Made by a program: the position numbers and the translations under genes | Origin: a virus | Strand: one strand, 5' to 3' | IMG/VR virus record: IMGVR_UViG_3300025131_000328 | Location: 1 to 27,506 of that record | DNA length: 27,506 nucleotides | Notes under the pieces: model-generated | The model's database searches: none | Seen by the model: the letters and a program-made list of their open reading frames with translations, nothing else | Told to the model about the DNA's origin: nothing | Shown: positions 5,210-26,939 of the stretch, in pieces | Layout of the letters: each line of letters opens with the position of its first letter | Position numbering within the stretch: position 1 is the stretch's first letter

Positions 5210-5665
5210 ATGGAAAGTCATTGGTTTTATAAGAGAAAGGTTTTAAATGAACCTCCCGAAAATATGCATGGTTTTGTTTATATTATATTTAATAAAATAA
5301 ACGATAAAAAATATATTGGAAGAAAGTATTTTTATTCTATTAGAAGAGTAAAGAAAAAGGGTAGTACCCGAAGAAGGGTTACAAAGAAGGAATCCGATTG
5401 GAAACAATATATTGGTAGTTCTAAAAGTCTAATTAGTGATATTGAAAAATATGGAAAAGACAATTTTTCATTTCACATAATATCTTTGGGAGAGACCAAA
5501 GGCCAGGTTAATTATTTGGAGGAAAATTTTCAACACAAGTTTGATGTTCTAACATCTCATAATTCAGAAGGAGAAAAAGAGTTTTATAATGATAGCATTG
5601 GAAATCGAAAATTTATTTCTATAAAGATCAATGAAAACCTTATAAAATCAATAAAAGTACTTTAA
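5210..5665 (+). CDS. GIY-YIG-type putative endonuclease
   Basis: About 151 residues from the ATG at 5210, one base after the upstream stop. A TTG at 5198 is in frame but would overlap the upstream gene and is less likely. The GIY-YIG hallmarks are GFVYIIFNK then KKYIGRKYF near the N-terminus (about residues 21-42), a second YIGSSKSLISDIEKYGK block, FSFHIISLG, and a conserved-looking LEENFQ with the candidate metal-binding Glu. Family members cut DNA as repair, restriction or homing enzymes. A free-standing gene between structural and replication genes fits a homing endonuclease or a phage-encoded DNA-processing nuclease. No separate DNA-binding repeats are visible, although a Lys/Arg-rich insert (RRVKKKGSTRRRVTKKE) lies between the two YIG blocks. 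Confidence 0.75.
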   Translation: MESHWFYKRKVLNEPPENMHGFVYIIFNKINDKKYIGRKYFYSIRRVKKKGSTRRRVTKKESDWKQYIGSSKSLISDIEKYGKDNFSFHIISLGETKGQVNYLEENFQHKFDVLTSHNSEGEKEFYNDSIGNRKFISIKINENLIKSIKVL

Positions 5666-5706: not shown

Positions 5707-6621
5707 ATGGATAATCTTAAACTTCAAAGAATATTAGAAGCTGCTTTGGGTAGTGGAGATTTGTTTAGCGGAGATAATGTAGCATTCAATTGTCCATTCT
5801 GTCATCATGTTAAGAAAAAACTTCAGATTAATTTGGTTTCTCATAAATGGCATTGTTGGGTTTGTGATGCAAAAGGAAGAACAATATATACTCTGATAAA
5901 TAAATTAGATGTTAGTAAGGAGATAAAAAAATCCATATCAAAGATTATAAAGTCAGGAGACTTTAGAGAAAATAAGAATCAAGATTATGAGATCCTTTCC
6001 TTGCCAAATAGTTTCACGAGATTTTGGGAAGCAAATAAAAATGATCCAGAATATAAAAATGCAATTAAATATCTTTTGTCAAGAGGATTGAGCGTTTTAG
6101 ATCTATTGAAATATGATGTTGGATTTTGTACAGAAGGTTTATATTCTGGGATGATAGTCATTCCTAGTTACGACGAGAACGGATTAATAAATTTTTATAC
6201 GGCAAGAAGCTACTATAAAGATTCTTCGTTTAAGCATCGAAATCCTAGAGTCTCTAAAGATATAATTGGTTTTGAATTATTCATAAATTGGAACGAACCC
6301 ATAACAATAGTTGAAGGGGCATTTGATGCAATTGCTGTAAATAGAAATGCAATCCCCCTATTTGGTAAAAATATGTCAAATAGATTAAAATTAAAAATTG
6401 TTGAAAATAAAGTAAAGGTTGTTAATTTAGCCTTAGATAGTGATGCCATTAATCAGGCTTTAAAGCATTGTGAATATTTAATGGCTAATGGAATTAAAGT
6501 AAATCTAATTGAACTTGATAACAAAGATCCCTCAGATCTAGGATATCCTGAATTTACCAAAAGATTGAGTAAAGCAAAAGAATTAGATTTTCAAAAAATA
6601 ATGGAGTATAAATTATTTTGA
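5707..6621 (+). CDS. DNA primase (zinc finger plus TOPRIM, gp61-like)
   Basis: A 304-residue protein that should synthesise RNA primers for lagging-strand replication. The N-terminal zinc site is Cys29-x2-Cys32 and Cys50-x2-Cys53 (NCPFCHH, WHCWVCD). The middle region has LSRGLSVLDLLKYDVGFC and the primase-like MIVIPSYDENGLINFYTARS. The TOPRIM core has the acidic motif VEGAFDA (Glu203, Asp207) and the DxD motif LALDSD (Asp244, Asp246). The architecture is that of DnaG/T4 gp61-type primases, shorter than DnaG and without a C-terminal helicase-binding domain. A T4-type gp41 helicase is not in this window. It overlaps the next gene by 4 bases (TTGA), which couples it to the recombination nuclease, and it has its own promoter-like element upstream. 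Confidence 0.9.
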   Translation: MDNLKLQRILEAALGSGDLFSGDNVAFNCPFCHHVKKKLQINLVSHKWHCWVCDAKGRTIYTLINKLDVSKEIKKSISKIIKSGDFRENKNQDYEILSLPNSFTRFWEANKNDPEYKNAIKYLLSRGLSVLDLLKYDVGFCTEGLYSGMIVIPSYDENGLINFYTARSYYKDSSFKHRNPRVSKDIIGFELFINWNEPITIVEGAFDAIAVNRNAIPLFGKNMSNRLKLKIVENKVKVVNLALDSDAINQALKHCEYLMANGIKVNLIELDNKDPSDLGYPEFTKRLSKAKELDFQKIMEYKLF

Positions 6622-9600
6622 TAAGAAAAAAATATAAAGTTGATTTTAATAATATATCAACAATCCTACATGTTAGTGATATTCACATTAGGAATTTTAA
6701 AAGACACAAGGAATATCGTAGCGTATTTAAAAGGTTATATAAGCAGGCCAGAGAACTTCCAGAAAACAGTATAATATATATCGGAGGAGATGTTGTTCAC
6801 AATAAGACTGATATTTCACCAGAGCTACTTTCTATGACTTCGGAGTTTTTAAATAGCTTAGCAAACATAAGAAAAACTATATTGATAGCAGGTAATCATG
6901 ACGCAAATCTTAATAATAAAAGCAGATTAGATTCTCTCTCCCCCATAATTAAAAATTTAAATAATCCAAACCTTTATTACTTAAGGGACACCGGTGTTTA
7001 TTCATTTGCGGATGTTGACTTTATTGTAATGTCAGTATTTGATAAGCCAGAAGATTATCCCAGAAGTGATTGCTCAAAAGCCAACACAAAAATTGCTCTT
7101 TATCATGGACCAATGAATTCTTCAATAACAGATGTGGGTTTTAAAATCAGAAATCCCGAAATGACCATAGACCGCTTTGATGGATTTGATATGGTTTTAT
7201 TGGGCGACATTCACAAGAAACAATTTCTGAATAAAGAAAAAACGATAGCATATTCATCGAGCCTTATTCAACAAAACTTTGGAGAAACTTTTGATGGTCA
7301 CGGATATATCATTTGGGATGTAAAAAATCGGAAACCTCTTTTTAAAGAGATGTTAAATGATTATGGTTATTATACTATAAATATAAAAGATGGTAAATGT
7401 CCTGATATATCCGATATTCCTAAAATGCCAAGAGTACGTTTGATAACAGAAAATACCTCTAATGCCGAAGTAAAAAAGATTCTCATTTCAATCCGGAAGA
7501 GATCCAAAATGCAGGATTATTTTGTTATAAGAAAAGAGAATTCATCGGAAATAAACAGAGGAACAAAAAAGGGTTTTGATTTGATTAGAAACCTAAGAGA
7601 CGTGGAATATCAAAATGTATTAATTGAAGATTATTTGAATCGTAATTCTTTTTTAGATGACTCTACTTTGAATGTTATAAAATCTATTAATAGAGAAATG
7701 AATCAACGATTGGTTGATATTGATGTTGGTAGGAACATAAATTGGAAGATAAAGAATTTTGAGTTTTCCAATATGTTTAGCTTTGGAGAAAAAAATAAAG
7801 TTGATTTCACAAAAATGAATGGGACGATTGGATTATTTGCAGCTAATCATATTGGAAAAAGCGCTTTATTAGATTCTATATGTTTTTGTTTGTTTGATAA
7901 ATGTAGTCGAGCTAGTAAGGCCGAAGACATAATGAATAATAAGAAAAGATCCTTTGATTGTAAAATAAATTTTGAAATAGAGGGGGTTGATTATTTTATT
8001 GAAAGAAAAGCTAGATATATTAAAAGTGGCCGGGGTAATGTAAGAGTAGATGTTGATTTTTGGATGAGTGGAGAAGATGGAGATGTTATTTCTTTGAATG
8101 GAGAACAGAGAAGAGATACAAACAAGAATATTCGTGGATATATTGGAAGTTACGAGGATTTTGTTCTGACGTCATTATCAGTTCAAAATGATAATACGGG
8201 ATTTATTGATAAGACCCAAACTGAGAGAAAAGATTTGCTAGGTCAGTTTATGGATTTGAATGTTTTTGAAGAATTATATCAGAATGCTAATGATGAGATT
8301 AGGGATATCACTGTATTGCTTAATGATTTTAGGAATAATGATTTTACTAACAAGCTTGCAGAATGTGAAGTTTTAGCTAAGAATAAAAAAATTGACTATA
8401 ATATTTTAGAAAAAGAAAAAACCTCAAAGATTCGAGAACGTAATAAAATAAATGAAAAAATATTAAATCAAACTAAAAAACTAATTACTATAGATGGCGG
8501 AGAATTAGACCTTGAAAAGCTTCAATTAGAAAAGAAAGATGTAAGTAATTCAATAAAATCTGGAGAGGGTTTTTTAGTAAATGTTAAATCGGACTATCAA
8601 GATACAGAAGAAAAAATAAAACAGTTAAAGGTGCAATTTAGATCTTATTCCGGTAACTTAAGGAGCAAATATGACGAATATCTTAATATAGAAAAACAAT
8701 TATTAGGTAAGGGTTCAGATTTGGATCAAATCAAGATTATAGTAAAGAATAAACTAGATAAACTTAAAAAATTAGAAGAACACAAATATGATCCAAATTG
8801 TGATTATTGTATAAATAATATTTTTGTCAAAGATGCAATTAAAACTAAAGAAGAATTGAATCATGATAAAATAAAAGTGTCTAATATTCTAAAAGTTCTT
8901 GAAAGCTTAAAAGAATCTATATCCAAATTAAATGGAGTCAAAGAAAAATATAATGAAAAGTTAGATTTAGAAATTTTGATAAGGACCGAAGAATCTACCT
9001 TAAATAAATCAAAAGATTCCATATATAGTATAAAAACAAAATTAGCTTTAAATGAAAAAAGATTTGAAGAAGTTTTAAATCTTATTGATAAAATTCATAA
9101 AAATAAAAGGGACATAGAAAGAAATTCTAAAATTTCAAAAAATATAGAAGCTTTAGAAGTAGATCGAAATACTGTTAATACGAGAATAAATGAATTAGAT
9201 TCAAATCTCATCGATCTTTATGGGAAAATTAAAGTAGCAGAAACCACAATAACTTCTATTAATTCATCTATAGAAGAAGCTGGAAATCTTGAAGAAAAAT
9301 ATAAAGCCTATGAGCATTATTTGAGAAGCATAAAAAGAAATGGAATTCCATACGAACTGATTTCGAATGCTTTGCCATACTTAGAAGAGGAAGTTAACTC
9401 CATATTATCTCAGATGGTAGAATTCAATGTTAAATTTGAAACGGATGGAAAAAATATAAATACCATAATAGATTATGGTACTGCTGGAAGTTGGTCATTA
9501 AATCTGACTTCTGGGATGGAAAAATTTATAGCTTCTTTGGCTATTAGGGTTTCACTTATAAGTCTTACTAATTTACCATGTCCCAATTTTATAGCTATTG

Positions 9601-9779
9601 ATGAGGGGTTTGGAAATTTAGATCCCGAGAATATTAATTCCATGAACACTCTTTTTAACTATTTAAAAAATTACTTTGATTTTATATTAATAATTTCTCA
9701 TATTGATACAATGAAAGATACTACCGAGGACTTAATTGAGATTAATAAGATCGGAGATTATAGTTTAGTTAATTATTAA
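6618..9779 (+). CDS. Fused SbcD-SbcC recombination nuclease (gp47-gp46 fusion)
   Basis: A 1053-residue single frame containing both subunits of the Mre11/Rad50-type complex. Residues about 10-330 are the metallophosphoesterase: VSDIHI, GGDVVHN, AGNHD, YHGPMN, LGDIHKKQ. Residues from about 375 are the SMC-like ATPase: Walker A AANHIGKS with Lys414, a long coiled coil, a zinc hook Cys728-x2-Cys731 (CDYC), a second coil, the ABC signature LTSGMEK (963-969), Walker B IAIDEGFGNLD (Asp995, Glu996), and IISHID. In T4 these are separate proteins (gp47 nuclease, gp46 ATPase) that resect DNA ends for recombination-dependent replication. The start is a TTG overlapping the primase stop, since no in-frame ATG precedes the VSDIHI motif. 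The first P-loop Gly is Ala, a mild deviation. Confidence 0.95.
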   Translation: MIRKKYKVDFNNISTILHVSDIHIRNFKRHKEYRSVFKRLYKQARELPENSIIYIGGDVVHNKTDISPELLSMTSEFLNSLANIRKTILIAGNHDANLNNKSRLDSLSPIIKNLNNPNLYYLRDTGVYSFADVDFIVMSVFDKPEDYPRSDCSKANTKIALYHGPMNSSITDVGFKIRNPEMTIDRFDGFDMVLLGDIHKKQFLNKEKTIAYSSSLIQQNFGETFDGHGYIIWDVKNRKPLFKEMLNDYGYYTINIKDGKCPDISDIPKMPRVRLITENTSNAEVKKILISIRKRSKMQDYFVIRKENSSEINRGTKKGFDLIRNLRDVEYQNVLIEDYLNRNSFLDDSTLNVIKSINREMNQRLVDIDVGRNINWKIKNFEFSNMFSFGEKNKVDFTKMNGTIGLFAANHIGKSALLDSICFCLFDKCSRASKAEDIMNNKKRSFDCKINFEIEGVDYFIERKARYIKSGRGNVRVDVDFWMSGEDGDVISLNGEQRRDTNKNIRGYIGSYEDFVLTSLSVQNDNTGFIDKTQTERKDLLGQFMDLNVFEELYQNANDEIRDITVLLNDFRNNDFTNKLAECEVLAKNKKIDYNILEKEKTSKIRERNKINEKILNQTKKLITIDGGELDLEKLQLEKKDVSNSIKSGEGFLVNVKSDYQDTEEKIKQLKVQFRSYSGNLRSKYDEYLNIEKQLLGKGSDLDQIKIIVKNKLDKLKKLEEHKYDPNCDYCINNIFVKDAIKTKEELNHDKIKVSNILKVLESLKESISKLNGVKEKYNEKLDLEILIRTEESTLNKSKDSIYSIKTKLALNEKRFEEVLNLIDKIHKNKRDIERNSKISKNIEALEVDRNTVNTRINELDSNLIDLYGKIKVAETTITSINSSIEEAGNLEEKYKAYEHYLRSIKRNGIPYELISNALPYLEEEVNSILSQMVEFNVKFETDGKNINTIIDYGTAGSWSLNLTSGMEKFIASLAIRVSLISLTNLPCPNFIAIDEGFGNLDPENINSMNTLFNYLKNYFDFILIISHIDTMKDTTEDLIEINKIGDYSLVNY

Positions 9780-9833: not shown

Positions 9834-11591
9834 ATGGCACAAAAAATTCTTCGAAGATATTTAGAGAAAATTCCCGTTTCCGTAGAGGATAATAGTCTTA
9901 ATTCACCAGATTATTTTGGATTTGATCCAGATTCCCTACCAGGATTTTTTCGTCTTGGAATAAACAAGATTATTTCTAAACCCAATATAGATAATTTGCA
10001 AATAAATAGTGAAATTGAAATGGAAGCTATTGATGGTGAGGGATATGCATTACCGTTTACAGTAGAGGGTAAAATAGATTCAGCTGATAAAGTGGTATTA
10101 AATTTAAGAGTTAGTGAAGATACTCCAATATATAATTTAAAGCTTTATTTTGTTGGAACTCTAAAAGATGGTTCAAAAGTCCGATGGTATAGAACATTTA
10201 CCGTTAATAGAGAAGGCGTTAAATTTTTTGGATCTCCTTCTGGTTCATTAATTACGGGTTCATTTTTTATTGGTAGAGCTCCTGGAAGGGGGATGGAGAT
10301 GTCTGGTAAGAGGTCTTCATTTATTAAATCAACTGACTATCAGGGCTTTAATTTGGCCACAGGTTCTCAAGCTCCTTCTGGTTTTATAATGTTTAGTGGA
10401 TCGGTGCTTCCAACATCTGGAGACGATTATAAGGGTGTTGGTTTAGAGTTGGTATCTGGAAATAAACATTATTTTAGATTCCGATCAAGTCCGGGAGCTT
10501 TAGAAATAAAAACTGATAATATTGATATAAGTGGTAGCAATGTTAAGATAAATACTCCATCATTTTTCCTTGGCAGTAGAAATCCTCCTGCTATGCTAAG
10601 CGGATCTAATGGTATATTGGAAATTAGCTCTTCAAAATTTTCTTTAGATGTTGGAGGTGGTATTTCGGCAAGTGCAGCGGTATTTCAAAACAGCTGTAAA
10701 GCAGATATGTTTATCTATAGAGAAACTAAAATAAGTCCATCCGGCGTAAATGCTGATAATCATCTATTAAATAAGTATGTCTATGGCAGCAGAAATTATA
10801 TTGTTTTGGAAATGACCGGCAGCTCTGATTATGGAGGTCCTGATACCGGTCATTTCATAAGAATCCAAGGTTTAACAGGAACCTATTCTCCCTTAGCCGA
10901 AGAATATCCAATTGGGGCAATTAATATTGCTGGGCCCGGAGATAATAAATACGTTTCCTTTATTATGATAGAAAATGCTATGGGGTCTGGTAATAAACTA
11001 TATTTTGCTCATGGCAAAACCCATCCGGCCGGTGGCAACATTGAAATTCTGAAATCAGATACTGATGATTGGACAGAAAAATCTTGGAATCAAACAACTG
11101 CCTCAGCTGAAGGAGCTTATTCCGGTCTTTTAGCTTTAGATCATGGAGCTCGACTTTTATTTTATAAATCTGAATTTGATTGGAGAATACAATCTACTTC
11201 TGAATATAATCATATAGCACCATCATTTTATTCTGGATCTCACCATGGTAATACAAGTCAAACAACAGCTATTAACGCTTATGGGGATATTGATGTTACT
11301 AGTGGAAATATATACACAACTGGAAATATAAGTGCAAGCGGGCATATAAGCGCCTCTTCAGGCCATTTTGGAACAATATCAACAACAGTAGCGGATAATA
11401 TTTTTACTTCTGGTCATATAACAGCCTCTGGAAATTTAGAAGTTGCAGGAGATATAAGCGGAAGTAGTCTTGCAACCTTCAAAAGCTTACGTTTGGATTA
11501 TGATTCTTTACCAACCTCGGATCCAGCTGTTGCAGGAGTAATTTATATCAACCCCAGTGATAATAGTTTACATATATCTCAAGGGGGATAA
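9834..11591 (+). CDS. Tail-fibre-like or virion surface protein
   Basis: A 585-residue protein rich in Ser/Gly/Ala. The N-terminal part has MAQKILRRYLEKIPVSVED and a beta-type domain to about residue 125, followed by a fibrous region. The C-terminal third carries short beta-helix-like repeats (GNISASGHISASSGHFG, SGHITASGNLEVAGDISGSS). It ends with LPTSDPAVAGVIYINPSDNS and LHISQGG, a terminus I associate with phage fibre and neck proteins, where the LPTSDP block recurs across unrelated fibres. It is therefore likely a receptor-binding fibre or decoration protein of the virion. No lyase or peptidase motif is apparent. It is preceded by a candidate late-promoter element and an AGGAT site about 12 bases before the ATG. 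Confidence 0.75.
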   Translation: MAQKILRRYLEKIPVSVEDNSLNSPDYFGFDPDSLPGFFRLGINKIISKPNIDNLQINSEIEMEAIDGEGYALPFTVEGKIDSADKVVLNLRVSEDTPIYNLKLYFVGTLKDGSKVRWYRTFTVNREGVKFFGSPSGSLITGSFFIGRAPGRGMEMSGKRSSFIKSTDYQGFNLATGSQAPSGFIMFSGSVLPTSGDDYKGVGLELVSGNKHYFRFRSSPGALEIKTDNIDISGSNVKINTPSFFLGSRNPPAMLSGSNGILEISSSKFSLDVGGGISASAAVFQNSCKADMFIYRETKISPSGVNADNHLLNKYVYGSRNYIVLEMTGSSDYGGPDTGHFIRIQGLTGTYSPLAEEYPIGAINIAGPGDNKYVSFIMIENAMGSGNKLYFAHGKTHPAGGNIEILKSDTDDWTEKSWNQTTASAEGAYSGLLALDHGARLLFYKSEFDWRIQSTSEYNHIAPSFYSGSHHGNTSQTTAINAYGDIDVTSGNIYTTGNISASGHISASSGHFGTISTTVADNIFTSGHITASGNLEVAGDISGSSLATFKSLRLDYDSLPTSDPAVAGVIYINPSDNSLHISQGG

Positions 11592-11634: not shown

Positions 11635-14124
11635 ATGCCGTTAGGAAAATGGTTAATAAATAGATTAATTTCTGAAGACAAGGATATTAAAACAATAGTG
11701 GCTATTTACCCGGGTCGATTCCAACCCATGGGCAAACATCATGCTGAGACTTTTAAGGGGTTACGCAAAAAATTTGATGATGCTTATATTGCAACAAGCG
11801 GTAAAGTTGATTTACCAAAATCACCATTTAACTTTAATGAGAAAAAGAAGATTATAAATTCTTATGGCATATCAAATATTGTCCAAGTTAAAAACCCATA
11901 CAAAGCAGAAGAGATTCTTAAAAAATATGATCCTGAAACTACTGCAGCAGTATTTATGGTTGGACAAAAAGATGCAAGTCGCCTTGGTGGTAAATTCTTT
12001 AGACCTTGGAAAGGAAAGGCCGAGGTTGGATATGAAGATGGTGCTTATACATTAATAGCTCCTCATAAATCTCTTAGTGTTCCCGGGTATGGTGAAATGA
12101 GTGGAACAACAATCAGAACTGCATTGGGTGATAAGTCTTTGGATCCTAAAGAAAAGAAAAAATTATTTAAGGATATTTTTGGTCACACAAAGAATTATGA
12201 TTTGATTGTTAAAAAATTAGGAAGTCTTCAAGAATCTCTGATAGAAAAATTTGTAATCAAATCGGATTTTAAAAAGATATTGAGTGAAGCAACTAGTACT
12301 GTTGGTTTGGGAGGAGGAATGGTTGATGATGGTCCAGTAACTGTATTTTCATCTTTTAAAGGGTATTCATCGAAGGGAGATTTTTATGCTAAGCAGATTG
12401 GATGGACAGTAGTAGATTATATATTATCTGGAGCAAAAGAAGTAAAGATAACACCAGATCGTAAGATCGATCCCGTAACATATTTCCCCGCTGGAGTTGC
12501 TGGAAAAAAAACACCCATCAATCCAATAGATTTAAAATCAACTCCAGCATATAAAGCCTACGTAAAGAGAATATCTAATATAGCTTTACGGCTTGGATAT
12601 AAGTTTTTAGATTTTATGGGAGCAGAAGACTCCAAAGAGAAAAAGACTTTTGACAAAGAAAAAATAAAAGAGCCAGATAAATCAATTAAGACACCGACAA
12701 ACTTATCAGAAAGATTGTTGGATCCCGGTATTTGGAAATCTATAATGGAGACTATTACTCTTCCGGTTGAAATTGGTGATACAGTTTATATGGGCAAATT
12801 TAAAAATAAAAAAGTTGTTGTTAAAACTATAAGTTGGAACGAAAAGGGAGATTTGTTGATCAATGGTAAGTCTGCCATGAGAATGAGAATACCTCCCAAG
12901 CCAAACATTTTTGATGGAGTTGTTATAACGGAGGGTGGAGCTTATGGTCATATGGCTCATCCGTTTGATGATAGAGGATTGACCTTTGGTGATTTTAAAA
13001 ATATTATTGAGCTATCACTACAAGGTCAATTGGATCTAGAAAGTAGTGCAACAGAAAAAACTGATGGACAAAATCTATTTATTACCTGGTCGGATGGAAA
13101 ACTAAAAGCAGCTAGAAGTACTGGAGATGTCAAACGTGGTGGCATGGACGTTAAGGCCGTAGCTTCAAAATTTAAGGGCAGAGGAAATATTGAAAAAGCA
13201 TTTAACTTTGCAATGAATGATTTATCCAAGGCAATAGGTGGTTTAAGTGATAAACAAAAAGCTAAAATATTTGATGGTGGAAACAATTGGGTTAATATGG
13301 AGATCATGTACCCTGCATCTCCGAATGTAATTGTATATGATGCACCACATCTTCAGTTTCACAATGTTTTAAAATATAAAGATGGCAAGGCAATTGGAGC
13401 TGTATCAGATGGAGCTCGAATTTTGGCCGGGATGATACAGCAGATAAATGCAAATGTTCAAAAAAGTTTTAGCGTAATAGGTCCACAGATTCTCAAGGTA
13501 AAACCCCATCAAGATTTTGGAGCCAAGAGATCATATTTCAATTCTAAATTAGATAAGTTAAAATCTAAATTTGGATTATCTGATGCTGCTACATTTTCAG
13601 AATATCATCAGACGTGGTGGGAAGATTATGTAGATAAAAATTTTCCAGGAATAGAAAATGCCATAAAAATGGGATTGGTTAAGCGATGGGCTTTTAATGA
13701 TAAGAGTTATAGACTAAATCTAAAAACCATACCAGATAAAGAACTTCTTAATAAAATTAAATCATTAGATAAGGTTAAGGTTGAACAACAGGTTAAAAAG
13801 AATATGTTACCATTTGAAAATTTATTTTTTGAATTGGGTGCTGAAGTCCTCAAGAATGCAGAAGGATTTTTAGCTGCTAATCCTGACAAATCTGTACAAG
13901 CTATAAGAAAGCAAGTTGCTAAAGCAATAAGAGATGTTAGGAAGGGTGGAGACCTTAAAAAATTAAATAAAGTTAAGGAACAGTTGGCCAAGATACAAGC
14001 TATAGGTGGATTTGATAAGATAGTGCCATCAGAAGGACTTGTTTTTATTTATAAGGGAAATACTTATAAGCTCACAGGAGCATTTGCGAGCATCAATCAA
14101 ATTACGGGATTAATGACTTTTTAA
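11635..14124 (+). CDS. NMN-adenylyltransferase-like domain fused to ligase-type nucleotidyltransferase-like domain
   Basis: An 829-residue protein. Residues about 20-190 form a cytidylyltransferase/NMNAT-type Rossmann domain: GRFQPMGKHHAETF (27-40), corresponding to GRFQPxHxGH but with the first His and the Gly replaced, and MSGTTIRTAL (Ser156-Arg161), the SGTxIR motif. Residues about 218-330 are an unrecognised domain. The C-terminal part has the ordered motifs of the DNA/RNA ligase superfamily: Lys475-Thr-Asp-Gly (EKTDGQNLFITW), Glu556 in VNMEIMYP, EGLVFIYKG with Glu800, and YKL with Lys812. Similar KxDGxN proteins occur uncharacterised in T4-like marine phages. The 325-residue span from KTDG to EGLV is longer than usual, and only 17 residues follow the last motif, so there is no OB fold. 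NAD(H)-linked nucleic-acid chemistry is inferred; this is not proof of ligase activity. Confidence 0.7.
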   Translation: MPLGKWLINRLISEDKDIKTIVAIYPGRFQPMGKHHAETFKGLRKKFDDAYIATSGKVDLPKSPFNFNEKKKIINSYGISNIVQVKNPYKAEEILKKYDPETTAAVFMVGQKDASRLGGKFFRPWKGKAEVGYEDGAYTLIAPHKSLSVPGYGEMSGTTIRTALGDKSLDPKEKKKLFKDIFGHTKNYDLIVKKLGSLQESLIEKFVIKSDFKKILSEATSTVGLGGGMVDDGPVTVFSSFKGYSSKGDFYAKQIGWTVVDYILSGAKEVKITPDRKIDPVTYFPAGVAGKKTPINPIDLKSTPAYKAYVKRISNIALRLGYKFLDFMGAEDSKEKKTFDKEKIKEPDKSIKTPTNLSERLLDPGIWKSIMETITLPVEIGDTVYMGKFKNKKVVVKTISWNEKGDLLINGKSAMRMRIPPKPNIFDGVVITEGGAYGHMAHPFDDRGLTFGDFKNIIELSLQGQLDLESSATEKTDGQNLFITWSDGKLKAARSTGDVKRGGMDVKAVASKFKGRGNIEKAFNFAMNDLSKAIGGLSDKQKAKIFDGGNNWVNMEIMYPASPNVIVYDAPHLQFHNVLKYKDGKAIGAVSDGARILAGMIQQINANVQKSFSVIGPQILKVKPHQDFGAKRSYFNSKLDKLKSKFGLSDAATFSEYHQTWWEDYVDKNFPGIENAIKMGLVKRWAFNDKSYRLNLKTIPDKELLNKIKSLDKVKVEQQVKKNMLPFENLFFELGAEVLKNAEGFLAANPDKSVQAIRKQVAKAIRDVRKGGDLKKLNKVKEQLAKIQAIGGFDKIVPSEGLVFIYKGNTYKLTGAFASINQITGLMTF

Positions 14125-22123: not shown

Positions 22124-22780
22124 ATGGCCAAACAGCTTTTAATTGATTATACCCCTTTTGAAATAACTCCTCGAATGATTAAAGAATCCGAGGAAAGAAA
22201 CGATGGGAAAGTAATTGTACAAGGAACTCTTCAAAGAGCCGGATCTAAAAATCAAAATGGAAGGGTTTATCCAAAAGATATCCTCATAAGAGAAGTCAAG
22301 AAATACAATGACAATCAAATTAAAGAAAGTAGAGCTCTGGGCGAGTTAGATCATCCAGAAAGTTCTGTTGTTAATTTGGCCAATGTTTCTCACAATATAT
22401 TGGAAACCTGGTTTGACGGGGATGATGTTATAGGAAAAGTTGAAGTCTTGGGAACGCCCAGCGGAAATATATTAAAGGAGCTTTTAAGAGCAGGTATTAA
22501 ACTTGGAATTAGTTCTAGAGGTCTTGGCAGTGTTAAACCTTTGTATGAAGAAGGAGATCACACTGTAGAAGTTCAGCCAGATTTTGAGTTGATTTGTTGG
22601 GATTTTGTTTCTAATCCTTCTACCCATGGGGCATTTATGGCTCCAATGCATGAATCTGTTGGCTCTAAAGTCAAGCTTGATAAATATCATAAAGTGAATA
22701 AGATAATAACCAATATAATTTGTGAAATGACCGGAGTTTGTAGAATTCCCACTCACAAAAAATCTAATTGTAAATGTTGA
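22124..22780 (+). CDS. Prohead core protease (gp21-like)
   Basis: A 218-residue serine protease of the herpesvirus/T4 gp21 fold (peptidase family U9/S80 type). It has GRVYPKDIL, the His motif GELDHPESSVV with His77, and the Ser motif LGISSRGLGSVK with Ser130/Ser131, plus the VQPDFELICWDFVSNPSTHG region. Its job is to process scaffold, core and capsid proteins in the prohead, usually after (I/L)xE before A/G. It lies in the T4 order portal - small genes - protease - scaffold - capsid. Length matches T4 gp21 (212). The C-terminal Cys pair (NCKC) is unusual and of unknown meaning. Confidence 0.95.
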   Translation: MAKQLLIDYTPFEITPRMIKESEERNDGKVIVQGTLQRAGSKNQNGRVYPKDILIREVKKYNDNQIKESRALGELDHPESSVVNLANVSHNILETWFDGDDVIGKVEVLGTPSGNILKELLRAGIKLGISSRGLGSVKPLYEEGDHTVEVQPDFELICWDFVSNPSTHGAFMAPMHESVGSKVKLDKYHKVNKIITNIICEMTGVCRIPTHKKSNCKC

Positions 22781-22789
22781 GGAAACAAA

Positions 22790-23071
22790 ATGGCCAATAT
22801 TAATTTAAAATCTCTTGTAAAAGAATCTATATTGGGAGATTTGCCAAGTTCAAAGCTTTTTAAATATAACAAGGGAACTGGTAAATATGATTCGCCAGTA
22901 TCTGTTAATGAAGCACCAATGGATATAGAACTTCAGGAGGATATATCTGATGTTCTTGTATTATTAGGTAGTATTTCTAAAAAAGTCAAATCATATAGTC
23001 CAAAAGCTTTTGGTAAGATCCAATCAGTTATGAAAACCTTAGTACAAGCTAAAAAAGATATTAGAAGTTAG
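22790..23071 (+). CDS. Head-cluster protein of unknown function
   Basis: A 93-residue protein, MANINLKSLVKESILGDLPS, with an N-terminal helix, a short Lys/Gly/Tyr linker and a C-terminal helical half (ISDVLVLLGSISKKVKSYSP). LKSLVKESI-type N-termini recur in proteins of T4-like head clusters and may serve as core-targeting or processing peptides (inference). A GAGGAA site lies 6 bases before the ATG. No membrane segment or enzyme motif. Confidence 0.7.
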   Translation: MANINLKSLVKESILGDLPSSKLFKYNKGTGKYDSPVSVNEAPMDIELQEDISDVLVLLGSISKKVKSYSPKAFGKIQSVMKTLVQAKKDIRS

Positions 23072-23099: not shown

Positions 23100-23669
23100 A
23101 TGAAATTAAAAAAAATACTTAAAGAAGCTAGAAAGCACCAATGGAACGAAGAAAATAAAAGAGCTTTTCTTGAAGCTGTTTCTAATTTTAATGATTATGG
23201 GTCTAGTATTTATAAAAATGAAACCATTAAGGAATCATTAAAGACTATAACCGAATTAATTTATAAAGCAGAATCTTTTACTATGAATGAATCTGATGAT
23301 TGGTTTGATGGTATTTCAGTAAAAAGAGATATGAAGCAATTAAAAGAATCTTCCGGTCTTTTTGCAAAAACTGTTAATGAGATGGGTTTACTACAGCAGA
23401 GATTAGAATCCTTATACGAAGACATGGGTTATAAGCTTGGAAAGTATTTTGAGATAAAGGAAAAAATAGATAATATTTCAGATAAAGAAGCAGCAACAGA
23501 TTTTGATGATTTAAAAGACAAAGATGTTGATAATGATGGAGACACAGATGATTCAGATGAATATCTCCATAAAAAACTTGGAGTTGTTGCTAAAAAAGTA
23601 GAGTCACGTATTCCTGCTTTTTCAGAAATGAAATCTACAAGTACTCCCAGCAAATTTAAAAGAATGTAA
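23100..23669 (+). CDS. Head-cluster protein with dockerin/EF-hand-like calcium loop
   Basis: A 189-residue, mostly helical, acidic protein. The N-terminus MKLKKILKEARKHQ contains LKE|A, a candidate gp21-type cleavage site. Residues 142-153 read D-V-D-N-D-G-D-T-D-D-S-D, a DxDxDGxxxxxD loop followed by a helix (EYLHKKLGVVAKKV), the pattern of a single dockerin or EF-hand calcium-binding loop. The tail is Ser/Thr/Lys-rich (MKSTSTPSKFKRM). The calcium loop suggests a calcium-stabilised virion or core protein; T4 head proteins of this kind are not known to me. It is followed by a 67-base gap with the bS21 promoter-like element. Confidence 0.75.
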   Translation: MKLKKILKEARKHQWNEENKRAFLEAVSNFNDYGSSIYKNETIKESLKTITELIYKAESFTMNESDDWFDGISVKRDMKQLKESSGLFAKTVNEMGLLQQRLESLYEDMGYKLGKYFEIKEKIDNISDKEAATDFDDLKDKDVDNDGDTDDSDEYLHKKLGVVAKKVESRIPAFSEMKSTSTPSKFKRM

Positions 23670-23736: not shown

Positions 23737-24012
23737 ATGCAAAAAAATAGATTTTATAAAAAACCCAAAAAAGAAGATTTTATAATTCCCGGAGTGCCCA
23801 ATGGAGTAAAAGTTCCTCCTGGATATCTTGAAGTGGCCTTAAGAAAATTTAAGAAACAAACCAAAGAATTTGAAATCTTAGCTGAACATAGGGATAGGCA
23901 GGCTTATATTAAAAAGTCAGCTAGGAAAAGAATATTAAAAGAAAGTGCTATCGAAAAATTGAGAAGAGATGTTGAAAGACAAAAGATAATTGATAAAGAT
24001 TCGTGTTTTTAA
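23737..24012 (+). CDS. rpsU: Ribosomal protein bS21 (phage-encoded)
   Basis: A 91-residue protein. Residues about 30-78 follow the bS21 pattern: YLEVALRKFKKQTKEFEILA, then EHRDRQAYIKKSARKR and ESAIEKLRRD, comparable to [20 protein letters not shown] in E. coli, and to the flavobacterial RQ-x-FVKPS...KLRD pattern. A 29-residue N-terminal extension precedes it (KKPKKEDFIIPGVPNGVKVP). bS21 sits on the 30S platform near the 3' end of 16S rRNA and affects mRNA choice. In Bacteroidota it helps to hide the anti-Shine-Dalgarno. Phage-encoded bS21 is known in marine phages. The gene has its own promoter-like element, no Shine-Dalgarno, and is closed by a terminator, so it forms a separate unit within the head block. 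Confidence 0.85.
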   Translation: MQKNRFYKKPKKEDFIIPGVPNGVKVPPGYLEVALRKFKKQTKEFEILAEHRDRQAYIKKSARKRILKESAIEKLRRDVERQKIIDKDSCF

Positions 24013-25274: not shown

Positions 25275-26939
25275 ATGACAAAAATTTCAAATTTATTGCA
25301 AGACGCCGGTGCCTCATATAAGAATCAAATCAATGAAACTAAAGGTTTGGTTAATAAGTGGGATAAAACAGGACTTCTCGAGGGAATGGACCAGGAATAT
25401 GATAAATCTGGTATGGCCGTTCTTTTGGAGAATCAAGCTCGTCAATTAATTGATGAGGCTTCTGCAACCGGCGGATCAAATGCCGAAGAATGGTCGGGTG
25501 TTGCTCTACCTCTTGTAAGAAGGATCTTTGCTGAAATTGCAGCTAAAGATTTTGTATCTGTTCAACCTATGAATTTACCATCAGGACTAGTTTTCTATCT
25601 TGATTTTAAATATGGTACAAGTGCAGCAGCAAATGATGCGGGAAGATTTACTGGAGACATCTTTGGTAATACTTCAGCTTCTGCTGATCCAACTGGCGGT
25701 CTTTATGGTGATGGTCGATGGCCTTTTTCCATAAAAGATGATGTTGCTGCAGTATCAGCAGTAAATGTATTTACAGCATCCTGGAAAGAAATCGGATTTA
25801 ACTCCGCTTTATCTACCTCTCTTAATATGGGAGGAAATAGTGATTCTGAGACTCTTTTGAAGATATCCTTTCCATTGGATAAATTAACTAGACCTGATAA
25901 TCAGGGAGTTAAAGGCTGGACAATAACTGGATCCGGGGTAACTGCAGCTAATAATATTAGCTCATACAACTATGTTAGTAATACTATTGCTAGCGCAGGA
26001 AGTAATACTCCAATCTATGGATCTAATTTAACAAGTGCCTTATCAGCATCGATATTTGTCCTTGCAACTAGTGCAATGCCAAAATTGGGTGCAACTATGC
26101 ACGTTAACTATGGCCGACAGCCCACAGAATCTACAAGAGGTGATTTTGAAGATACAGCTGGTGATGGAACAACTATCAATATTCCAGAAGTTAACGTTGG
26201 AATGCATTCAGAGCCAATTGTTGCTAAGACACGAAAGTTGAAAGCAGTCTGGTCTCCAGAATTTGCTCAAGATTTAAATGCTTATCATTCAATTGATGCT
26301 GAAGCTGAATTGACTTCAATGCTTTCTGAATATATCTCGATGGAGATTGATTTAGAGATCATAGATATGCTTTTACAGAATGCTGTAACAACTGAGTATT
26401 GGTCTGTTACACCTGGTCAGTCAATAAATAACGCAGGAACAGCTTTTGACGATGGAACATCAGCAGAAGCTTATAATCAGGGAACCTGGTTCCAAACTAT
26501 TGGAACTAAAGTTCAGAAAGTTTCTAATAAAATCCATGCAAGAACTCTTCGAGGAGGTGCTAATTTCTTAGTTACTTCTCCAGACGTTGCAACGATTATA
26601 GAATCTATTCCTGGATATGCTGCTGATACTGATGGAGGCTCAATGGGAGCACAGGGTTTTGCAATGGGTGTACAAAAAGTGGGTCAGCTTAATAGCAGAT
26701 TTACAGTGTACAAAAATCCATACATGCAAAGGAATGTTATTCTCATGGGATTCCGTGGAACTCAATTCTTGGAAACTGGAGCGGTCTACGCACCATATAT
26801 TCCATTAATCATGACTCCACTGGTATATGATCCTACCAACTTTACACCAAGAAAAGGTGTGATGACACGGTATGCTAAAAAGATCGTACGTCCAGAATTC
26901 TATGGTAAGATTTATATTAAAGGATTGAACAAAGTTTAA
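25275..26939 (+). CDS. Major capsid protein (gp23-like)
   Basis: A 554-residue HK97-fold capsid subunit of the T4 gp23 type (T4: 521). N-terminal helix region residues 1-61 (MTKISNLLQDAGASYKNQIN...LLENQARQLIDE). A candidate protease cut lies at Ile-Asp-Glu61|Ala62 (LIDE|ASATGG), close to T4's removal of 65 residues, with another possible site at LLE36|G37. Body motifs include WSGVALPLVRRIFAEIAAKD, FVSVQPMNLPSGLVFYLDFK, RKLKAVWSPEFAQDLNAYHS, AEAELTSMLSEYISMEIDLE, and the C-terminal YAPYIPLIMTPLVYDP with PRKGVMTRYAKK and PEFYG. Expressed from the scaffold unit and ended by the hairpin at 26964-26998. Confidence 0.97.
   Translation: MTKISNLLQDAGASYKNQINETKGLVNKWDKTGLLEGMDQEYDKSGMAVLLENQARQLIDEASATGGSNAEEWSGVALPLVRRIFAEIAAKDFVSVQPMNLPSGLVFYLDFKYGTSAAANDAGRFTGDIFGNTSASADPTGGLYGDGRWPFSIKDDVAAVSAVNVFTASWKEIGFNSALSTSLNMGGNSDSETLLKISFPLDKLTRPDNQGVKGWTITGSGVTAANNISSYNYVSNTIASAGSNTPIYGSNLTSALSASIFVLATSAMPKLGATMHVNYGRQPTESTRGDFEDTAGDGTTINIPEVNVGMHSEPIVAKTRKLKAVWSPEFAQDLNAYHSIDAEAELTSMLSEYISMEIDLEIIDMLLQNAVTTEYWSVTPGQSINNAGTAFDDGTSAEAYNQGTWFQTIGTKVQKVSNKIHARTLRGGANFLVTSPDVATIIESIPGYAADTDGGSMGAQGFAMGVQKVGQLNSRFTVYKNPYMQRNVILMGFRGTQFLETGAVYAPYIPLIMTPLVYDPTNFTPRKGVMTRYAKKIVRPEFYGKIYIKGLNKV

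Follow-up and report, generated by a model that had tools for sequence, protein, structure and literature searches.

The 27506-base virus record IMGVR_UViG_3300025131_000328, analysed here at its full length and referred to as the window, represents part of the genome of a T4-like phage, with Pfam matches to prohead protease, capsid, portal and terminase, and contains an open reading frame (ORF) at positions 11635-14124 (+ strand) that encodes a single chain of 829 amino acids. With moderate confidence, this chain can be read as a virion-packaged polyprotein that is cut by the prohead protease and delivers an RNA-ligase-like enzyme together with an enzyme resembling nicotinamide mononucleotide adenylyltransferase (NMNAT), probably for RNA repair early in infection. 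In the proposed mechanism the polyprotein would be made late by a T4-like marine phage, and a short N-terminal capsid-targeting peptide would bring it into the prohead. There the gp21-type protease would cut after (L/I)xE, at the targeting peptide as well as in the linkers, and thereby free an NMNAT-like HIGH nucleotidyltransferase, an RNA-ligase-like enzyme that uses ATP and Lys475, and two accessory pieces, X and K. All would enter the host together with the DNA. The RNA-ligase-like enzyme would most likely seal RNA ends, e.g. those left when host anticodon nucleases cut tRNAs, and the kinase and CCA/polyA-polymerase modules found in relatives would help it. The NMNAT-like part may restore NAD+, and phage NAD+ synthesis has been mentioned as a counter-strategy (PMC9503650).

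Four parts of the chain can be told apart with profiles made from its relatives; they lie on the + strand, as do the motifs and linkers listed here and, further on, the genes of the prohead protease, the major capsid protein and two small proteins with N-terminal signals. NT (residues 18-200, 11686-12234) is a HIGH-superfamily nucleotidyltransferase, similar to NMNAT or phosphopantetheine adenylyltransferase (PPAT), with an altered HIGH motif, GRFQPMGKHH (27-36, 11713-11742), in which GxHH replaces HxGH, and an SGTTIR motif (156-161, 12100-12117). X (227-338, 12313-12648) is a conserved block defined by profile, for which the predicted local distance difference test (pLDDT) of the model is mostly below 50, and K (372-424, 12748-12906) is a mobile module of about 50 residues. 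R, which has a profile envelope of 430-829 and a conserved start at GG434 (434-829, 12934-14121), carries the motif I KxDG with Lys475 (13057-13059), the lysine predicted to be adenylylated, as well as Glu556 of motif III (13300-13302), Glu800 of motif IV (14032-14034) and Lys812 of motif V (14068-14070). NT is preceded by a capsid-targeting-like peptide, MPLGKWLINRLISE (residues 1-14, 11635-11676), which ends in (L/I)xE at E14, and the tripeptide recurs at E200 (LQE), which ends NT, at E204 and E218 (ILSE↓ATST, the arrow standing after the glutamate) in the NT-X linker (12235-12312), at E346 and E359 in the X-K linker (12649-12747), at E372, the first residue of K, and at E433 (VITE↓GGAYGH, 12931-12933), immediately before R. 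Two of these sites, E200 and E372, thus sit at domain edges, and a ninth (L/I)xE, E459, lies inside R. In the model of residues 1-430 only NT (about 20-206) is well predicted, and the quality is poor beyond about 206. A YopX match to the protein (Pfam E 0.061) was set aside as chance.

Because of its predicted fold and its motifs, R is assigned to the ligase-type nucleotidyltransferases, and among these to the RNA-ligase kind. K475, D477, G478, E556, E800, G801 and K812 are identical in 68/68 aligned C-terminal domains, a set that, like the 42 N-terminal domains considered below, includes the window protein and an identical copy (L005). When jumbo-phage and metagenome-assembled genome (MAG) relatives of about 30-37% identity are added, Lys475, Glu556, Glu800 and Lys812 are invariant in all 80 aligned sequences, window included, each of which presents the KxDG of motif I, the Glu of motif III, the EG of motif IV and the Lys of motif V in this order. 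Two alignments of R were used, the first comprising 61 of the 68 C-terminal domains (leaving out the identical L005, near-duplicates and rows with long N-terminal extensions) and the second 58 of these 61 plus 15 new sequences (with L137 dropped for a stop codon). The R model, built on an alignment of 73 sequences, has a pLDDT of 87.9 and a predicted template modelling score (pTM) of 0.83, and shows motifs III and IV separated by a largely helical insertion. Foldseek matches this model to an archaeal RNA ligase (E 2.9e-3) and T4 Rnl1 (E 3.2e-3) in the PDB. In the VIA comparison, which re-scores Foldseek's own candidates and in which a Z below 8 may reflect merely a common arrangement, the model is matched with Naegleria RNA ligase [6vt3, Z 9.3, root-mean-square deviation (rmsd) 4.1 Å over 189 residues], T4 Rnl1 (5tt6, Z 8.7, 4.0 Å, 186 residues), Trl1 (6n67, Z 8.5, 4.8 Å, 196 residues) and Rnl2 (1s68, Z 8.2, 4.0 Å, 182 residues), and rows 1-23 consist of RNA/tRNA ligases. 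A reading of R as a DNA ligase was rejected, the first such enzyme, Pmar-Lig, which we take to be a DNA ligase, appearing only at row 24 (Z 7.3, 4.9 Å, 179 residues).

R thus shares the predicted fold and motifs I, III, IV and V in order with RNA ligases such as Naegleria Rnl, T4 Rnl1 and Rnl2, Trl1 and trypanosome REL1, but it is only about 11-15% identical to them in structural alignments, contains the helical insertion and stops a short distance behind motif V. Of the predicted viral structures, 24 match R at E 0.001 or better, the top two (6.0e-42 and 1.3e-35) being uncultured Caudovirales proteins named only “cytidyltransferase-like.” Sequence profiles respond weakly: Pfam RNA_ligase (PF09414) gives E ≤1 in 38 of the 61 aligned members (best 0.0023), the window’s own R not matching, and four of ten members reach 12.4-17.7 bits, below the curated cut-off of 27, with the matches confined to profile positions 5-33 of 171, i.e. 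the KxDG stretch. A PDB profile search with the R sequence returned chance-like matches only (best E 0.044, to ribosomal eS6), and a PHROGs search found no family common to more than 13 of the 61 members (best E 0.00018). The original prediction had described the ORF, without database searches, as a one-chain fusion of an NMNAT-like and a ligase-type nucleotidyltransferase, with the catalytic residues in ligase-superfamily order, a changed first His of HxGH (GKHH) and a long insertion before motif IV; all the motifs it named are found at the residues it gave, and each of these features is borne out by the alignments and models, the changed His being conserved among relatives.

NT looks like a HIGH nucleotidyltransferase of NMNAT type, although PPAT fits its model equally well. 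G27, R28, Q30, P31, H36, S156, G157, T158 and R161 are identical in 42/42 aligned N-terminal domains, and in 76 distinct stretches retrieved with a search pattern in which the last His was obligatory, the motif reads GxHH in 66, HxGH in eight and TxGH in two. The model, with pLDDT mostly 71-92 per 10-residue block over residues 21-200, shows the HIGH-superfamily fold and, together with the GRFQP and SGTxIR motifs, links NT to NadM, archaeal NMNAT and PPAT. These three are tied as structural matches in the VIA comparison (NadM 2qjo, Z 12.3, rmsd 4.6 Å, 171 residues; PPAT 3pxu, Z 12.0, 3.0 Å, 148 residues; archaeal NMNAT 1ej2, Z 11.9, 2.6 Å, 144 residues), while in Foldseek PPAT is the top match (E 3.3e-5) and NadM the seventh (3.0e-4). 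Pfam CTP_transf_like (PF01467) matches NT of the window below cut-off (E 0.0085). Likewise, the best NCBIfam match of the window is a PPAT model (E 0.0039; 17.2 bits against a cut-off of 103.3), followed by four NMNAT models (E 0.012-0.046, the best at 15.2 bits against a cut-off of 127). The relatives L002, L035, L204 and L001 match NMNAT models more strongly than the window does, still below cut-off, and the sole NCBIfam model above cut-off in these comparisons is the generic TIGR00125, in L035 and L204. Since PPAT ties in VIA and leads in Foldseek, the substrate of NT is not settled: of the proposed NMNAT identity, the HIGH fold and the NMNAT-like look with SGTxIR stand, whereas the HxGH of NMNAT reads GKHH in the window and PPAT fits as well as NMNAT.

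A feature that had no place in the original prediction is the set of virion-packaging signals on the chain. T4 gp21 cuts after L/I-X-E (PMC9026906), and T4 internal proteins carry N-terminal capsid targeting sequences of 10-20 residues that are removed by gp21 (PMC7411985, PMC9026906). The window encodes a gp21-type prohead protease (Peptidase_S77, PF03420, E 1.6e-30; 22124-22780), which is the predicted processing enzyme. Among 52 full-length proteins, window included, 42 carry an [LIF]xE that terminates between residues 9 and 22 (mean of shuffles 17.4, maximum 29), irrespective of which domain comes next; the ten misses include probable wrong first-ATG calls (L125, L129, L205 and L010) and VxE (L100, L095 and L155), and L074, the start of which is doubtful as well, was counted as a hit. 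At the junctions, where the motif had to end within the last six of 16 upstream residues, [LI]xE occurs in 21/24 nonredundant cases before NT (shuffled 3.7), 21/24 before X (shuffled 3.1, maximum 10) and 36/41 before R (shuffled 10.9, maximum 21), the nonredundant 16-mers being drawn from 30, 30 and 80, respectively. In the same 52 proteins, short linkers (8-60 residues) hold 154 [LI]xE sites in 3466 residues (shuffled 61.6, maximum 88) and the domains 185 in 37146, so that the motif is about nine times as dense in linkers as in domains and reaches 2.5 times what shuffling predicts. This indicates that linker composition accounts for part of the excess but not all of it. When 11 patterns were compared in linkers (mildly filtered from 125 to 114), [LI]xE had the highest ratio, 2.40 (160 against a shuffled mean of 66.8, standard deviation 6.5, maximum 87), followed by [LI]..E, which overlaps with LLxE, at 1.81, and eight of the other patterns had ratios of 0.44-1.14. 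Because the linkers carry prohead-protease motifs, NT and R may be separated before acting.

The same kind of site is seen on other proteins of these phages. T4 gp23 sheds a 65-residue propeptide (PMC9026906), and the gp23-type major capsid protein of the window (PF07068, E 3.3e-75; 25275-26939) has a candidate maturation site, LIDE↓ASATGG, after residue 61. Capsid proteins compared with it have LIQE↓ANATGT, LISE↓NSATGG and LINE↓FTTTS at residue 61 and LVTE↓ANQTGT at residue 58 (relative genome G002), so that (L/I)xE fits four of the five sites, which resemble the X junction ILSE↓ATSTVG. In gene sets from the ORF caller of this analysis, a tight N-terminal pattern (MIKLxxILxE type) is found in 7/164 genes of G001, 7/164 of G003, 6/192 of G002, 1/101 of G005 and 1/29 of the window, with shuffled means of 0.061, 0.059, 0.053, 0.043 and 0.015, respectively; the signal is weak in G005 and the window. 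The one window gene is a small gene at 23100-23669, which starts with MKLKKILKE↓A. A looser pattern, which stands out less from its controls than the tight one, occurs in 15/164 genes of G001 (shuffled 4.4, maximum 14), 13/164 of G003 (4.9, 12), 18/192 of G002 (5.1, 14), 7/101 of G005 (3.2, 10) and 4/29 of the window (0.87, 4), where another small gene (22790-23071) has the N-terminus MANINLKSLVKE↓S, a possible packaging signal that fits the looser motif only. Genes with the tight pattern include one for a stand-alone kinase-like protein (AAA_33, 4.9e-11) and one for a stand-alone PolyA_pol protein (3.1e-30), domain kinds that are also found fused in the polyproteins. In G003, three neighboring reverse-strand genes (L172, 17219-19631) each start with a targeting-like peptide; one encodes a PolyA_pol protein and one matches, by eye, a module fused in L030.

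The closest known kinds are polyvalent proteins and T4 ejection proteins. Like polyvalent proteins (Iyer et al., 2017, PMC5512222), which are predicted to be packaged and injected, it unites unlike enzymes on one phage-encoded chain, with at least two domains of unlike predicted enzymatic activity, and its domains shuffle. However, a common though not obligatory theme among polyvalent proteins is processing by zincin-like metallopeptidases, whereas the window chain has a gp21-type motif at the junctions and a T4-like targeting N-terminus. No peptidase is among the Pfam matches of the window protein, and Zn_protease is found in one of 44 relatives. In the main text of PMC5512222 “RNA ligase” occurs three times, each time on 2H domains, which were never seen associating with RNA ligases. 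With the T4 internal/ejection proteins IPI-III and Alt the chain shares a short N-terminal peptide ending in (L/I)xE (here at E14), a gp21-type protease in the phage and a gene in the structural cluster (PMC9026906, PMC7411985, PMC3012670), but it differs in having several domains, with candidate cleavage sites inside the chain where one enzyme passes into the next. The open-access literature searched did not yield the combination of T4-type targeting, gp21-type junction sites and an RNA-ligase-like domain, nor anything to the point on NMNAT with RNA ligase.

Relatives are abundant among viruses, and their domains are shuffled. A whole-protein search of viral contigs identified 328 of 381 candidate stretches as relatives, and an R-profile search of the viral collection found at least 553 stretches encoding relatives (best 600 examined). 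Six named phage records match, two of them with NT and R (Microcystis phage Mel-JY01 and LR756508), one with R only (LR756500) and three with module K only (LR756502 and two HTVC008M records). The NT-R protein of Mel-JY01, an isolated phage, has 639 residues and is annotated “cytidylyltransferase like protein.” A cellular origin is unsupported, the six relatives in the genome collection all lying on MAG contigs of 3-20 kb. The domain orders are NT-X-R, NT-K-X-R, K-NT-X-R and, as in the window, NT-X-K-R, with NT-R in five cases; R precedes NT in L204, X comes first in L203, and K occupies several positions and in HTVC008M gp128 is not accompanied by any of NT, X and R. PolyA_pol is fused in L037 (6.5e-30), Nudix in L059 (2.9e-14) and ParB_N in L002 (0.00044). 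Across 44 full-length relatives, drawn from 51 nonredundant proteins that in turn come from 96, the extra domains are Zeta_toxin (8), AAA_33 (7), and PolyA_pol, Nudix, Zn_protease and ParB_N (one each). On a MAG contig labeled Flavobacteriales, a 1909-residue open frame (L202, 829-6555) contains K, a ParB-like stretch (by eye), PolyA_pol, a further region, NT, X and R. In L099 (719-3022 and 3878-5065) R is interrupted exactly at motif I, with an extra ORF between the halves; in the first ORF ...TTEK runs on into CISGDS..., and the second ends an intein-like stretch with ...GILVHN and resumes with TDGQNLF, which by eye looks like a split intein positioned at the catalytic lysine.

Of 102 ORFs that carry R and have their start within the locus, 96 also contain NT, which would suit a stable bifunctional enzyme whose two domains remain linked and cooperate in the infected cell, without packaging or cleavage, e.g. 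in RNA end repair or in capping with nucleotide supply. The six ORFs without NT (L003, L207, L206, one of L099 and two of L137) can be accommodated by such an enzyme, since in L003 R alone is followed by an adjacent ORF with CTP_transf_like (1.8e-7), L207 has a different HIGH-type motif ahead of R in the same ORF, and the others represent short fragments or parts of genes that are interrupted; the swapped order in L204 fits it as well. On the other hand, the concentration of [LI]xE in linkers, the similar N-terminal signals that unrelated genes carry and the very variable inserts between NT and R argue against a stably joined enzyme, and this explanation is considered rather unlikely.

In cyanophages and pelagiphages similar proteins occur as separate genes. 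Here a HIGH nucleotidyltransferase, annotated as “cytidylyltransferase,” is encoded near a KWDG protein of about 400 residues, DUF6267 (PF19782), and many of both have capsid-targeting-like starts, but unlike in the window the two are fused in 0/87 DUF6267 loci; a separate HIGH nucleotidyltransferase lies nearby in 57 of the 87, 69 of which had more than 700 bases downstream. An ORF with the searched kinase P-loop string is present in 31/87 loci, and in HTVC008M consecutive genes encode DUF6267 (3.4e-135), the protein with module K, a protein resembling kinases (Zeta_toxin, 3.1e-13) and a nucleotidyltransferase. DUF6267 is encoded in at least 597 stretches of the viral collection; its N-terminal peptides (11 of 65 being too short and three lacking Met) contain [LIF]xE in 33 of the 51 distinct ones of sufficient length (shuffled 11.2, maximum 23). 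A forced full-length alignment with R lines up the KxDG, PNxIxY, VFH, EG and K motifs with weak scores, and the similarity in sequence is suggestive only; DUF6267 as a proven homologue of R was rejected on account of the weak scores, a global hhalign giving E 0.84 and no usable alignment. The open-access literature searched does not mention “DUF6267.” The cyanophage nucleotidyltransferases belong to the same superfamily as NT and have similar N-termini (MRFRQFIIE↓A in S-SZBM1_140 and MKNFSSFLTE↓A in S-CREM2 ORF154, annotated as a virion protein). S-SZBM1_140 was found in virions by mass spectrometry (MS) with two peptides (PMC9146016). Virion MS also covers the S-CREM2 nucleotidyltransferase, which was called an NMNAT homologue, such enzymes being suggested to be carried in virions (PMC10665884). 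In L243, L237 and other DUF6267 loci many of the nucleotidyltransferase ORFs open with a shared segment like ESIIDIPR.TYAP.VFD.

Several observations weigh against a packaged and processed repair polyprotein. The PDB matches of R in Foldseek have low TM scores of 0.22-0.23, none at E ≤0.001, and the link from R to DUF6267 has weak hhalign scores (E 0.0075 and 0.013, probability 5 and 3). Packaging of the polyprotein family itself would follow by analogy, the virion MS coming only from the cyanophage proteins of the same superfamily, and S-SZBM1_141, the DUF6267 partner, is absent from the virion table that lists its neighbor _140 (PMC9146016). As to the signals, five of the 41 R junctions have LLLM instead of LLxE, the capsid protein of G002 has VTE, with V at P3, rather than (L/I)xE, and the window protein and its G001 relative match only the looser N-terminal pattern, the excess of which is modest. 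The junction counts are not independent trials, because the sequences are related by descent, and [LI]xK is also slightly above the shuffles in linkers (ratio 1.39; 91, maximum 89). Since HxGH is altered and PPAT fits as well as NMNAT, NT may be inactive or take another substrate, and the eight families matched in the 44 relatives include neither a phosphatase nor a cyclic-phosphate module. Confidence was lowered slightly because PPAT leads two comparisons and [LI]xK exceeds its shuffles.

The gene context raises the question of an assembly role. T4 gp63 is Rnl1 and also the catalyst of tail-fiber attachment, and by comparison the window protein could mainly promote virion assembly. Its gene lies among structural genes, directly after a 585-residue protein (9834-11591) that is fiber-like by eye, with no Pfam match above cut-off, and before the terminase, and T4 Rnl1 is among the structural matches of R. 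However, the strictly conserved catalytic residues and the kinase-like, polymerase and Nudix modules fused in some relatives fit enzymes better, which makes a primary role in assembly improbable. Finally, the NMNAT-like fold, the NMNAT models among the NCBIfam matches and the ligase-superfamily motifs would fit the originally suggested self-recharging NAD-dependent ligase, whose NMNAT part regenerates NAD+ from released NMN, but this idea is weakened to a very small chance because the fold of R is RNA-ligase-like (the structurally closest RNA ligases are ATP-dependent), the partners can be unfused (L003) or swapped (L204), the linkers carry protease motifs so that the domains are likely separated, HxGH is altered in the window, and only about 40 residues precede motif I. 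The columns conserved in 90% of that stretch contain no Tyr; LigA, considered for its NMN-binding N-terminal domain Ia, is not among the structural matches listed, which excludes nothing.

Further genes of the window include the portal (gp20; PF07230, E 9.2e-73) and the terminase (PF03237, E 8e-13). The phage protein encoded at 14-1138, which either begins at 14 or lacks part of its N-terminus, has a hedgehog-type Hint module (PF01079, 9.7e-17) at its end, after a glycine run, and 5210-5665 encodes a SegE-type GIY-YIG endonuclease (PF19835, 2.4e-35). The chain at 6618-9779 joins Metallophos (Mre11/gp47-like, 3.5e-13) and AAA_23/SbcC (Rad50/gp46-like), and a similar-looking ORF of 1046 residues is found at the same gene-order position in G001. 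Ribosomal protein S21 (PF01165, 5.7e-8) is encoded at 23737-24012, between small head-region genes and a scaffold-like gene, and is likewise annotated in the Mel-JY01 record.

A broader proposal, which we put forward tentatively, is that of a virion-borne repair kit comprising the RNA ligase and the NMNAT-like enzyme and, in relatives, the kinase, CCA/polyA polymerase and Nudix. The protease that matures the head would also free these enzymes inside it, tRNA cleavage and NAD+ depletion caused by host defenses might be undone before phage genes are expressed, and DUF6267 of T4-like cyanophages would be the unfused form of the ligase-like part. If true, a phage head protease would be able to process an enzyme polyprotein, and RNA repair would arrive together with the DNA instead of having to be produced once infection has begun. 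The abundant unannotated marine-phage genes of both families would then have a testable role, and the combination of an N-terminal signal with a linker motif would provide a sequence rule to find candidate injected proteins in uncultured T4-like phages.

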